Shown one piece after another: positions 9,116 to 12,122 of a stretch of DNA of 60,094 bases (its first letter is position 1; every line of letters starts with the position of its first letter). The position numbers were made by a program, and so were the translations under genes. The notes beneath the pieces are model-generated. The model saw only the letters and a program-made list of their open reading frames with translations, had not been told where the DNA came from and ran no database searches. The stretch lies in NCBI RefSeq assembly GCF_000732485.2, contig NZ_JAQV02000025.1, positions 1 through 60,094 on the forward strand, read 5' to 3'. Source of the stretch: Bacillus sp. SJS. Its GTDB lineage: Bacteria; Bacillota; Bacilli; Bacillales; Bacillaceae.

Positions 9116-9415
9116 TTCTTCTTCCTTTTCCTCAGGCAAATGCTCAAGGCAATAAGAGGCAACCATTGCTTCCTCTTCCTCATCCAAACCAAAGTCAAAG
9201 CTCTGTTCTGTCTCTTTTTCATAAAATTGATATTGAGTAATCCGCGCCTGCTCATTCTCCAGCAGGAAAATCACCCGCAAGTAAATTCCGTTCTCAGAAT
9301 AAAGTTCATCATCCTCCGGAACATCCAAATCCAATAAAAATTCATAGCGGTCACCAGGCAAAATCCCAAACGGATCTTCAAGCAGTTCCGCTTCGTGGCT
9401 AGTAATTGTCAGCAT
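9113..9415 (-). CDS. Small acidic protein, DUF6509-like
   Basis: This 100-residue acidic protein contains the block EDPFGILPGDRYEFLLDLDV, followed by DDELYSENGIYLRVIF. It resembles the DUF6509 proteins of Bacillus, some of which have been mislabelled pullulanase. The C-terminus is a run of acidic residues. No catalytic residues can be named. It ends at the shared terminator. Confidence 0.65.
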   Translation of the reverse strand: MLTITSHEAELLEDPFGILPGDRYEFLLDLDVPEDDELYSENGIYLRVIFLLENEQARITQYQFYEKETEQSFDFGLDEEEEAMVASYCLEHLPEEKEEE

Positions 9416-9486
9416 CCTAACACCGTCCTTCCATTAATCACTTCACTCGGATTATACACAACTTGTTCCTTCAAAGAAATAAAACT

Positions 9487-9512
9487 GTGTAAGATAACGA
9501 AAAATCGGGAAT
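9487..9512 (+). promoter_or_regulatory. Putative SigB (general stress) promoter
   Basis: GTGTAA (9487-9492), 14 bases and GGGAAT (9507-9512) match the SigB consensus GTTTAA-N12-15-GGGWAW with one -35 mismatch. It lies about 54 bases upstream of the YozQ-like gene. Confidence 0.5.
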
Positions 9513-9565
9513 GGACAAGTAGGTGCATCAAAAAGATGCATCCACATCGAAAGGAGCGATTCAGC

Positions 9566-9739
9566 TTGAGCACCAAACTAACCGAAATGGCAGCAGAGGT
9601 AGCAGGCAAATCATTCGATCCGGCCGAAAAGGAGAAAGAACATACAACAACTGGTCTTGAAGTGACACACGAGCAAATTGGCGATCATTATGCAGCAGGA
9701 ACCATTGATCAAAGCATAAAAGCTAAAAACGGTGAATAA
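9566..9739 (+). CDS. YozQ-like small protein (DUF4025)
   Basis: This 57-residue hydrophilic protein has the features VAGKSFDPAEKEKE and TGLEVTHEQIGDHYAAGTID, which resemble the YozQ/DUF4025 family of Bacillus. The start is a TTG at 9566, nine bases after AAAGGAG; the longer upstream frame has no ribosome site. A SigB-type promoter at 9487-9512 suggests expression under general stress. Its function is unknown. Confidence 0.65.
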   Translation: MSTKLTEMAAEVAGKSFDPAEKEKEHTTTGLEVTHEQIGDHYAAGTIDQSIKAKNGE

Positions 9740-9740
9740 G

Positions 9741-9772
9741 AAAAAACGAGGGCTTCCGGCTCTCGTTTTTAT
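9741..9772. terminator. Bidirectional terminator between the YozQ-like gene and the gvp operon
   Basis: The ACGAGGGC/GGCTCTCGT hairpin has A-runs before and T-runs after it, so it can end both the plus-strand gene at 9739 and the minus-strand gvp operon at 9769. Confidence 0.8.
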
Positions 9773-10050
9773 ATTTGAAATCGTAAGTTGTCTAAAAGGT
9801 CCTTAGGCTCCCTGTAGGATTGTCCATTATTGGGATCATGAACATCCTCAGTACTTTTCAGCAGATCAACCGCATCAGCATAGCGCAGCCATGTCTCAAT
9901 ACTTGAAACGACGATTCTTGCCTCTACTGTAATTAATTCAATCCCCAAAACTGAAATTCGCGCAAAAACATCGATGACAATTCCTTTATCCAATATGCGG
10001 TCCACGACTTCTACAAGGCTCGATCCATCCCTGCATTTTTCCAGCATCAT
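9769..10050 (-). CDS. gvpA: Gas vesicle structural protein GvpA-like
   Basis: This 93-residue protein carries the GvpA core, residues 9-60 ([20 protein letters not shown] and [20 protein letters not shown]). In gas vesicles this amphipathic helix-strand-strand-helix protein forms the ribs of the shell. It differs from textbook GvpA by an extended polar tail ending [10 protein letters not shown], resembling the tail of the neighbouring GvpJ-like protein. A good GGAGGGGG ribosome site precedes the ATG at 10050. It is the last gene of the operon, unlike the usual first position of gvpA. Confidence 0.82.
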
Positions 10051-10070
10051 CTTTACCCCCTCCTTATTTT

Positions 10071-10454
10071 TTACTGTGTTCTCCTAACGGGCTTTCCAAT
10101 GACAAATCCGCTTACCTGATCAAGCCTGCCTCTCCAAAGTGCAGAAACGGGCGCTTTTTCCCCTTCGATGTACACATTTTTCAAATGAATGAACGCAGCG
10201 GTCCCATGGTCTCCCGCCCCTTTGCTTGCTTCATAAAAACGCTCACTCAATTTGGCCGAATGCTCATCGGTCCGCTGCTCAAATAAACTCCCAAATCCTT
10301 CTAAATAGTCGGTAGCCGAAATAAGACTCCCGGTTACTGCCTTGCCATCCACAGTTAATATCAAATCCAGCTCAAAATCGTGGCGATTGGCTGTAATCAC
10401 AAGCGTTTCCAGAATGGAATCCCGTCTATAGGATTCCCGAGAATCGTCACCCAT
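10071..10454 (-). CDS. gvpU: Gas vesicle accessory protein GvpU
   Basis: This 127-residue soluble protein resembles GvpU, the last gene of the Bacillus/Priestia megaterium gas vesicle cluster. The recognisable parts are the beta-rich centre ([18 protein letters not shown]) and [11 protein letters not shown] followed by [16 protein letters not shown]. In P. megaterium GvpU is reported to influence vesicle clustering. It starts behind AAAGGGAGG at 10454 and lies 20 bases upstream of gvpA. Confidence 0.75.
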
Positions 10455-10469
10455 ACGGACTGCCTCCCT

Positions 10470-10751
10470 TTAAATTAATCTCTTCAAATCAAGTGCATCA
10501 AGCAGGCCGGTATGCTCTTTCCTTGGCCGTTCTTCAATTGGGTCTGCCTTTGAGCTTAAATAAGGATCTCTCTCCCACCAGTCCAGTCCGATTTCCTTCG
10601 CTTTATCGACAGACGCCACAATCAGTCGGATTTTTATGGTCAGAAGCTCTACATCCGCGAGGTTAATCCGAATATCCCCGGCGATGACGACACCTTTATC
10701 AAGTATCCGTTCCAGTACATCGACAATTGAACTCGTTTGTTCAGACAGCAC
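10470..10751 (-). CDS. gvpJ: Gas vesicle minor structural protein GvpJ-like
   Basis: This 93-residue GvpA-family paralogue has SSIVDVLERILDKGVVIAGD, then ADVELLTIKIRLIVASVDKA and GLDWWERDPYLSS. The latter part is characteristic of GvpJ/GvpS rather than GvpA; such proteins are placed at vesicle tips or nucleation. I chose the GTG at 10751 because AAGGGAGG lies seven bases upstream, immediately after the gvpG stop. The longer frame to 10904 overlaps gvpG and lacks support. The tail ends TGLLDALDLKRLI, echoing the GvpA tail. Confidence 0.8.
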   Translation of the reverse strand: MLSEQTSSIVDVLERILDKGVVIAGDIRINLADVELLTIKIRLIVASVDKAKEIGLDWWERDPYLSSKADPIEERPRKEHTGLLDALDLKRLI

Positions 10752-10764
10752 ACCCTTGCCTCCC

Positions 10765-11022
10765 TTATACAGACTCATCATCCAGCAGCTTGCTCCACTG
10801 CCGTCTTTCCATGTCTTTAGCGCATTCATATCTTCTAATCCATTCTTCATACTGCTGCCTGTACTTATCTTCGTGAATTTCATTTTTTTCATGCCGGAGT
10901 TCAAGCATCAGCAGGTTTTTCTGGATGATTCCAACGTCATACAATTCTTTATCCGCTTCTTCCTTTACTTTTTCAGCAGCGAGCAGGAACAGCTTCAGCG
11001 GCAAAAACAGGACAGGCATCAT
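10765..11022 (-). CDS. gvpG: Gas vesicle protein GvpG
   Basis: This 85-residue protein starts with the hydrophobic PVLFLPLKLFLLAAEKVKEE segment and continues as a charged coiled-coil-like helix (DKELYDVGIIQKNLLMLELR), the GvpG pattern. GvpG is an assembly factor found next to gvpF/L. Its ATG overlaps the stop of gvpF/L (ATGA), so the two are translationally coupled. Confidence 0.8.
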   Translation of the reverse strand: MMPVLFLPLKLFLLAAEKVKEEADKELYDVGIIQKNLLMLELRHEKNEIHEDKYRQQYEEWIRRYECAKDMERRQWSKLLDDESV

Positions 11023-11756
11023 GAGCTTTTCTCTGCTTTCAAATGAATGTTAATGAAGTTATATGGCGGCCATGGACCCGTATAGACAAACTCAGCCTGA
11101 GCCTTGAATGTTTCGTAAAGCTCTGATACAAGCTCATCAAATGAAGTCTCTTGCTCTCTTCTAATGAGATACGATCCGTTCAGCAGCATCGTTTCTGTCA
11201 AAATGTCATTCTGCCTGGAATCATCCGCAGCATCATGAAGCTTTTGATGAATGCTCTCGTCAAATTGCTTTCTTATAGAAAGAAAAAAACGTTCGGCAAG
11301 CTCTCCCTGTTTAATCCGGTCTTTATAAAGGGTGCTTTTATTGGGCTTCACTTTTTTATCGTATTCCTGCGACAGCCATTCTTTTTTTCCAATCACCTTC
11401 AGACCGACCTCTATTCTTCCTTTAAGGGATGGGAGAATTCCCTGAAGCTCGGGATAAAGGCGTTTTAGCAGACCTTCCGCCTCATTCAAGGAATGAACAA
11501 TGTGCCCGAAGCTGAACGGAAAGACAGCCTCGCTGCCATCCATAAAGGAGGTGATGATCTTTTGATGCAGAAGCAGATTTTCTTTTGATGGCCTTAACAG
11601 CAGCGGAACCTCAGCGGCTGCCAGGAACAGATCCTTATATGGAATAATCAGCAATTCACGGTCCATTCCGTCAAAATAAACGCTTCTGTCCGCTTCACCG
11701 CCCGGCCCTGCCGCTATGCAAAAAACGTAAAGTCCAGCATCAGAAGTCAATCCCAT
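11019..11756 (-). CDS. Gas vesicle protein GvpF/GvpL family
   Basis: This 245-residue protein has the GvpF/L two-domain plan. The N-terminal alpha/beta domain contains GLYVFCIAAGP, and LLLRPSKENLLLHQKIITSF is the typical HxxV/I helix. VFPFSFGHIVHSLNEAEGLL and VGLKVIGKKEWL follow, then a helical C-terminal domain that ends GPWPPYNFINIHLK. GvpF and GvpL help GvpA assemble; most clusters have two or more copies and this one has a single copy. Its start overlaps the upstream gvpO/R-type gene by 10 bases. Confidence 0.83.
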   Translation of the reverse strand: MGLTSDAGLYVFCIAAGPGGEADRSVYFDGMDRELLIIPYKDLFLAAAEVPLLLRPSKENLLLHQKIITSFMDGSEAVFPFSFGHIVHSLNEAEGLLKRLYPELQGILPSLKGRIEVGLKVIGKKEWLSQEYDKKVKPNKSTLYKDRIKQGELAERFFLSIRKQFDESIHQKLHDAADDSRQNDILTETMLLNGSYLIRREQETSFDELVSELYETFKAQAEFVYTGPWPPYNFINIHLKAEKSS

Positions 11757-12004
11757 TGGCCCGTCTCCCCACGATGCTTCAAATATTTTCGCGAATACGA
11801 GATGACCTCGTTTTGACTGTTTAATTTCACATCGTACACGCCCACCATCTCATCCCGCGCATACTTTCTCATATACTCTTTTTCTTCAATGATCTCCACC
11901 AATGCGCGGAACCCCTCATCATCAGGTTCAACAGAAGGAATCTTATGTGGCGGCGTAAGATATTCACTAAAAAACTGTTCAATGGCTTCAAGCGTGTTTT
12001 TCAA
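11747..12004 (-). CDS. Gas vesicle protein GvpO/GvpR-type
   Basis: This 85-residue first gene of the operon matches the GvpO (PF05800) pattern. After an N-terminal helix with ATTP-like IEQFFSEYLTPPHKIPSVEP there is YARDEMVGVYDVKLNSQNEV and a terminal ISYSRKYLKHRGE segment. In P. megaterium a related small gene (gvpR) precedes gvpN. The start is a TTG at 12004 with a moderate AAGGG site. No gvpN ATPase follows it. Confidence 0.68.
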   Translation of the reverse strand: MKNTLEAIEQFFSEYLTPPHKIPSVEPDDEGFRALVEIIEEKEYMRKYARDEMVGVYDVKLNSQNEVISYSRKYLKHRGETGQWD

Positions 12005-12082
12005 GTGGACCCAACCCTTTCATTTCTTCCTGTTTTTGTTAGATTTACCTGAACGCTGATTTTTATGAATTCAGTGAAGACG

Positions 12083-12113
12083 AAAAAAAAAAGCTTCCGC
12101 TGGACAGGAAACC
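12083..12113 (-). terminator. Second (tandem) terminator downstream of the DUF1540 gene
   Basis: On the minus strand a GTTTCC/GGAAGC stem is followed by about ten T (A-run 12083-12092). Confidence 0.6.
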
Positions 12114-12122
12114 TTTTACACA

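Follow-up and report, generated by a model that had tools for sequence, protein, structure and literature searches.

The window, a 60,094-nucleotide stretch of a Bacillus sp. SJS contig, contains a compact run of six consecutive minus-strand genes (12004-9769) whose products match gas vesicle protein (Gvp) families by HMM, in the order gvpO/R, gvpF, gvpG, a gvpJ-type gene, gvpU and gvpA (Table 1). The coding regions of gvpO/R and gvpF overlap, as do those of gvpF and gvpG, and the remaining gaps in the operon are within about 20 bases. This agrees with the first-pass annotation, which had proposed the same six-gene operon: HMM searches with all six proteins returned Gvp families, that of GvpO/R being marginal in Pfam. 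The annotation had also described the operon as devoid of gvpN and gvpK. Indeed, neither of these, nor gvpL, gvpS, gvpT, gvpP or gvpQ, occurs within the operon in the reading-frame list or among the HMM matches. The six proteins give solely gas-vesicle Pfam families over cut-off, with none pointing to another nanocompartment (encapsulin, BMC).

Table 1. Features of the gvp operon and its flanks in the window.
Feature	Coordinates	Strand	Evidence or remark
gvpO/R	11747..12004	-	TTG start; PF05800 25.5 bits, cut-off 25, marginal
gvpF-type gene	11019..11756	-	245 aa; PF06386 148 bits
gvpG	10765..11022	-	PF05120 50.3 bits
gvpJ-type gvpA paralogue	10470..10751	-	GTG start; PF00741 62.8 bits
gvpU	10071..10454	-	NCBIfam NF041667 110.5 bits, cut-off 70
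gvpA, second shell protein	9769..10050	-	PF00741 51.7 bits; NF006874 104.8 bits, cut-off 100
Conserved upstream element	12029..12069	-	TTCATAAAAA ... AGGwAAATCTAACArAAAyAGG; candidate promoter/operator of the operon
Terminator-like hairpin and T run just past gvpA	9742..9770	-	Fold -11.1 kcal/mol, z -3.2
Hairpin and T run between DUF1540 gene and operon	12088-12117	-	11-pair stem
Small reading frame, tail-to-tail with gvpA	9395-9739	+	

A complete gvp cluster in the same genome

A complete Priestia (Bacillus) megaterium-like gvp cluster, including gvpN, gvpL, gvpS and gvpK, lies on contig C26 of the same genome (locus L006; hereafter the main cluster). Its genes run in one direction and encode GvpQ, A, R, N, F, G, L, S, K and J, a YtxH-like protein that occupies the GvpT position, and GvpU. 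GvpN is matched by TIGR02640 at 344.9 bits (cut-off 266.8) and GvpQ by NF041670 at 113 bits, in a frame that may cover P too; GvpK exceeds its Pfam cut-off and GvpU its own cut-off. L and S were assigned from gene order and similarity; their Pfam families fit and the NCBIfam models fall below cut-off. Across the genome PF00741 finds five copies (two in the window operon and three on C26), GvpF/L has three matches (two on C26, one in the window) and GvpK a single match, on C26.

These results bear directly on the first-pass annotation, which had taken the lack of gvpN and gvpK as the premise of a self-sufficient shell, and had named the missing genes elsewhere in the genome, together with vesicle formation, as what would speak against it. 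A genome search finds gvpN and gvpK on C26, alongside gvpL and gvpS, which is the genetic half of that counter-evidence. The stand-alone minimal shell thus loses its main support. Taking B. megaterium as the standard for a stand-alone vesicle cluster, the operon contains the shell gene (gvpA/B) and F, G and J, whereas L, S and K (plus N for elongation), which that standard places in the same cluster, are found on C26.

The operon proteins are distinct from their main-cluster counterparts. GvpF of the operon is 36% identical to main F (255 columns) and 23% to main L (201 columns), and matches the solved chain 6l5d, described as 'Gas vesicle protein' (E 2.9e-13). The J-type protein is 66% identical to main-cluster J and 47% to main A. 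GvpO/R, at 54% identity to main-cluster GvpR over 79 residues, belongs to the GvpO/GvpR family by a PF05800 score that passes the cut-off marginally; the same model gives 30.7 for the counterpart in the operon of genome G051, 24.2 (just below cut-off) for that of Metabacillus mangrovi KCTC 33872 and 32.0 for the main cluster. No Pfam family scores above cut-off for the operon GvpU. Assignment of the operon GvpA to the shell family follows from PF00741 and NF006874, both over cut-off, and from its likeness to solved shells; it matches the NCBIfam GvpA models NF046092 and NF006872 below their cut-offs.

Control signals and flanks

The pattern of the conserved upstream element is present in 13 of 118 loci, every one from the five operon-bearing genomes, the pattern having been derived from the very sequences on which it was scored. 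It is retained in all five carriers, at three sites, and beyond it the upstream sequences of the M. mangrovi (G003) and G051 versions are, by eye, unlike. Since the element is kept despite this difference, the operon seems to move or to be inherited as one unit together with its control region. When the genome was searched with the 13-base operon motif at up to one mismatch, there were 16 hits, compared with 21 for the reversed motif used as control, and the only exact hit is the operon site, so that a second regulon member is not shown. A GTTAGATT core common to the upstream regions of both gvp loci was noted by eye and is too short for a claim. Scanning for sigma-70-type promoters gave no minus-strand match; the three found were all on the plus strand (4.3 in shuffles).

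The operon ends in the terminator-like hairpin just past gvpA, which was equalled in 2 of 200 shuffles. A simple hairpin scan missed it, an internal mismatch being the probable reason. On the other side, a stem resembling the hairpin between the DUF1540 gene and the operon was seen by eye in G001 and G004. In G003 and G005, where the site is operon-free, the C-terminal part of the small reading frame that faces gvpA is found again next to the DUF6509 gene.

Distribution and versions of the operon

The main F and L pair is present in each of the six genomes from the genus, the second operon in four (G000, G004, G001 and G003). GvpF/L occurs in 17 of 80 genomes of the family, which adds one further carrier of the second operon, G051, from another genus. 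The order and class samples were draws from larger groups, the class sample sharing genomes with the order sample. In the former, 111 of 397 genomes match the operon GvpF profile, only G000, G001 and G051 exceeding 440 bits and the next scoring 270; in the latter (398 genomes, E limit 1e-85), G000 alone was found. A first protein-based contig scan returned eight relatives, with the operon in M. mangrovi only (76%); four of the other seven (42, 42, 40 and 36% identity) sit in N, L, S, K clusters. Plasmid-borne transfer was also considered and set aside: GvpF matches 28 plasmid records, but identity stays below 60% throughout the 12 of 28 matches listed, with no carrier there.

The operon lineage is known from five genomes and three genomic sites. 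In G000, G004 and G001 it reads O-F-G-J-U-A and is flanked by DUF1540 and DUF6509 genes, a site that has no operon in G005 and an unrelated gene in G003. The M. mangrovi version, O-F-G-U-A, is without J and lies some 4 kb away from a glmS-like gene, on the far side of which is a glmM-like one (both named by eye). In G051 the order is R-F-G-L-S-K-J-U-A, with other neighbours again. All five carriers have an N, L, S, K cluster in the same genome; this co-occurrence is by itself weak evidence, since the main F and L pair is genus-wide. GvpK is likewise over cut-off in all 111 genomes of the order sample with a GvpF match.

Several observations concern gvp loci outside the operon lineage. In the order searches GvpK occurs without a match to the operon GvpF profile at G369:C3:40631-40882 and G218:C11:190159-190392, one over cut-off and one below, possibly marking partial or divergent clusters. 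In the main cluster of G002 (L065), a member of the same genus as the window genome, nothing matched GvpT or GvpU of the latter. In Alkalihalobacterium chitinilyticum (L053:7058-8008) gvpN appears as two adjacent open frames, and in G312 the main-cluster gvpL (L106:7678-8482) appears as three separate open frames and looks interrupted or mis-assembled.

Phylogeny and the mosaic operon of G051

A tree of R, F and G places the operon genes in a single clade (100/100), separate from every main cluster; where this clade belongs among them is less sure. The operon clade recurs in the A and U trees (100/99) and in the J tree (99/96). Judged from these trees the operon lineage is deep and is not a recent copy of the main cluster.

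The exception is the L-S-K block of G051: in the L+S+K tree these operon copies branch with G051's own main cluster (100/99). The block begins with L and runs into the 5' end of J; in a DNA alignment of 1618 columns it is 85.2% identical to that main cluster, followed by 84.5, 83.9 and 83.6% to the main clusters of G054, G050 and G055 of that genus. Beyond the block, the stretches that align are short, at 69-82%. The R, F, G, J, U and A proteins of G051, by contrast, are 54-79% identical to the window operon versus 32-63% to its own main cluster. The L+S+K tree and the DNA identity together indicate that main-type L, S and K came to lie among operon-type partners in G051.

This mosaic speaks against a plain reduction series from nine to six to five genes, the G051 L-S-K being a main-type block. 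The simplest history suggested by the sequences is a six-gene ancestor, with L-S-K gained in G051 and J lost in G003, so that the six-gene state may be ancestral. If instead an original L-S-K had been overwritten by gene conversion in G051, the window operon would be a reduced descendant. The G051 copy of L-S-K may also reflect a need for local supply and not sharing.

A divergent shell protein under purifying selection

The operon GvpA resembles two solved shells, 7r1c (E 1.4e-25) and 8gbs (E 1.9e-21), which we take to be those of B. megaterium and Anabaena, respectively. It is 65% identical to main GvpA over 74 residues. Core positions 9, 13, 35, 42, 48, 49, 51 and 62 are fixed in the five operon GvpAs (four different sequences), and the operon residues there are absent from all 18 main-type and outgroup rows (14 different), in which these positions are invariant. 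The changes include A13V, A49S and G62D; the C-terminal tail also differs between the operon and main types. Three second-cluster GvpA rows from another genus, tallied separately from the 18, have the main-type residue at positions 13, 42, 48, 49 and 51 and a third residue at 9, 35 and 62.

Rates of change were estimated by NG86, whose values are rough for such short genes. Between G000 and G001, dN/dS in the operon is 0.017 (R), 0.169 (F), 0.053 (G), 0.078 (J), 0.232 (U) and 0.028 (A), and in the main cluster 0.098 (R), 0.009 (F), 0.068 (G), 0.026 (J), 0.024 (U) and 0.028 (A). Four genome pairs gave 12 comparisons with both ratios usable, pairs with saturated or zero dS yielding no ratio and being left out; the operon value is higher in nine, lower in two and equal in one. 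Against M. mangrovi, dN of GvpA is 0.137 in the operon and 0.031 in the main cluster, where dS is saturated. By these measures purifying selection acts on the operon genes, in most cases less strongly than on their main-cluster counterparts; the higher operon ratios also fit relaxed constraint.

Discussion

Two gvp loci per cell and N-less clusters are both already known. The P. megaterium cluster, gvpAPQBRNFGLSKJTU, has the families R, F, G, J, U and A in common with the window operon and its general layout in common with the main cluster of this genome. The operon differs from it in being without N, L, S, K, T, P and Q and in having gvpU and gvpA last. Halobacterium salinarum has two related gvp loci per cell, as here, namely p-vac and c-vac, which PMC9501494 describes as related vac regions, differently expressed and giving different vesicle shapes; the second locus here, in the window, is without N, L, S and K. 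In Table 1 of the same paper Streptomyces coelicolor gvpOAFG-JLSK also appears without N, but L, S and K are kept.

A further parallel comes from G240, G312 and G411, of one other genus of the order, where an N-less second cluster (A-R-F-G-L-S-K-J) accompanies an N-containing one, as in the window genome. Unlike the operon, these second clusters have their own divergent L, S and K and no match to U, and both the R+F+G tree and the L+S+K tree set them apart as a branch of their own. Their GvpAs do group with those of the operon in the GvpA tree (83/86), in a join flagged as a possible long-branch artefact. The two clusters of each genome (L105/L106 in G312, L107/L108 in G240, L109/L110 in G411) lie about 44-51 kb apart in opposite orientation. 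The literature searches turned up no second operon limited to a shell protein and its handlers with a relative that carries main-type L-S-K inside.

We favour, with moderate confidence, the reading that the operon is an accessory shell-variant cassette that has its own GvpA, O, F, G, J and U and relies in trans on the main cluster for L, S, K and N. The operon would supply a second GvpA along with GvpF, GvpG and GvpO/R, proteins reported to handle shell subunits, and would add a GvpA-like GvpJ and a vesicle-organizing GvpU. The complete cluster would provide GvpL, S and K for early assembly and GvpN for elongation. When expressed, the operon would thus give vesicles with a second type of shell or with a mixed one, presumably gas-filled and perhaps altered in shape or strength. 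Counting in favour of this reading are the N, L, S, K cluster in each of the five carriers, the G051 mosaic, the GvpK match that accompanies every GvpF match in the order sample, the purifying selection on the six genes and the eight fixed core positions of the operon GvpA.

Published work bears on this reading in several ways. For B. megaterium, PMC11223475 reports that L, S, K and J are essential, that GvpN is required for elongation and that R, T and U are dispensable; because L, S, K and N are needed there, the operon alone should not suffice. PMC11445434 describes GvpA2, F and G as an interdependent set, with the A2-L contact depending on S, K and J, and in haloarchaea monomeric GvpA is reported to be bound by GvpF and GvpO, while by split-GFP GvpL and GvpN touch other Gvps and not GvpA (PMC9501494). 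The genes retained in the operon largely match these shell-handling partners, which we count in favour of the cassette. The division between handlers and other proteins is not clean, since a GvpN-GvpA2 interaction was seen in B. megaterium upon removal of other Gvps (PMC11445434) and haloarchaeal pulldowns recovered GvpN, J, M and H together with GvpA (PMC9501494). Gvp sets do appear mixable, as Anabaena GvpA is built into vesicles by B. megaterium non-structural proteins (PMC11223475). Moreover, three GvpA changes distinguish spindle from cylinder vesicles in Halobacterium (PMC9501494), which suggests from p-vac and c-vac that few GvpA changes can alter vesicle shape.

The foremost alternative, which we regard as unlikely, is that the operon proteins modulate the main vesicles, with small amounts of variant GvpA, J, G and U entering or tethering them and tuning their number, width or clustering, and that no second vesicle type forms. 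Vesicle clustering is reported to be mediated by GvpU and less by GvpT (PMC11445434), though PMC11223475 states that a role of GvpU in clustering could not be confirmed. Further precedents are that excess GvpG and other Gvps lower vesicle amount or size in other hosts (PMC9501494) and that B. megaterium vesicles are narrower when R, T and U are all omitted (PMC11223475). Modulation would nevertheless not need a complete shell gene accompanied by dedicated F, G and O, and between G000 and G001 the constraint on the operon GvpA equals that on main GvpA, although not against M. mangrovi.

It is quite improbable that the six genes alone build a reduced, perhaps non-gas-filled protein shell, as the first-pass annotation had proposed. 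The presence and conservation of GvpA, J, F and G and of the operon's own upstream element fit such a shell, but a complete cluster is present in the same genome, each of the five operon carriers found has an N, L, S, K cluster, B. megaterium requires L, S and K (PMC11223475), and the M. mangrovi operon is without J as well. What survives of that proposal is a lineage that is distinct, under selection and equipped with a shell protein of its own, for which a shell with different properties is plausible from the sequence. Slightly less probable still is a decaying duplicate of the main cluster heading for loss: the varying gene number (nine, six, five), the absence of the operon from two of the six genus genomes, the state of the window's site in G005 and G003 and the higher dN/dS in 9 of 12 comparisons would suit it, but the frames are intact in five genomes with dN/dS at 0.23 or below, the upstream element is kept at three sites and the lineage is deep, with no sign of a recent copy.

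The operon touches on a problem on which vesicle engineering depends, namely how the Gvp proteins divide into those tied to a particular shell subunit and those that serve assembly in general. The five-, six- and nine-gene versions beside complete clusters amount to a natural, evolutionary swap experiment, and the operon GvpA is a shell variant changed at eight positions that are invariant in the main-type and outgroup rows, three of which also differ in the second clusters of the other genus. More tentatively, and at rather less than even chances, Gvp genes may fall into two modules, one specific to the shell (A, O, F, G, J and U) and one a general assembly machine (L, S, K and N), the first being a transferable cassette that re-clothes vesicles and depends on the resident machine. 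G051 would then be a natural record of the two modules recombined. From the natural set of versions the prediction is that O, F and G (and U and J) must match GvpA, whereas L, S, K and N need not.
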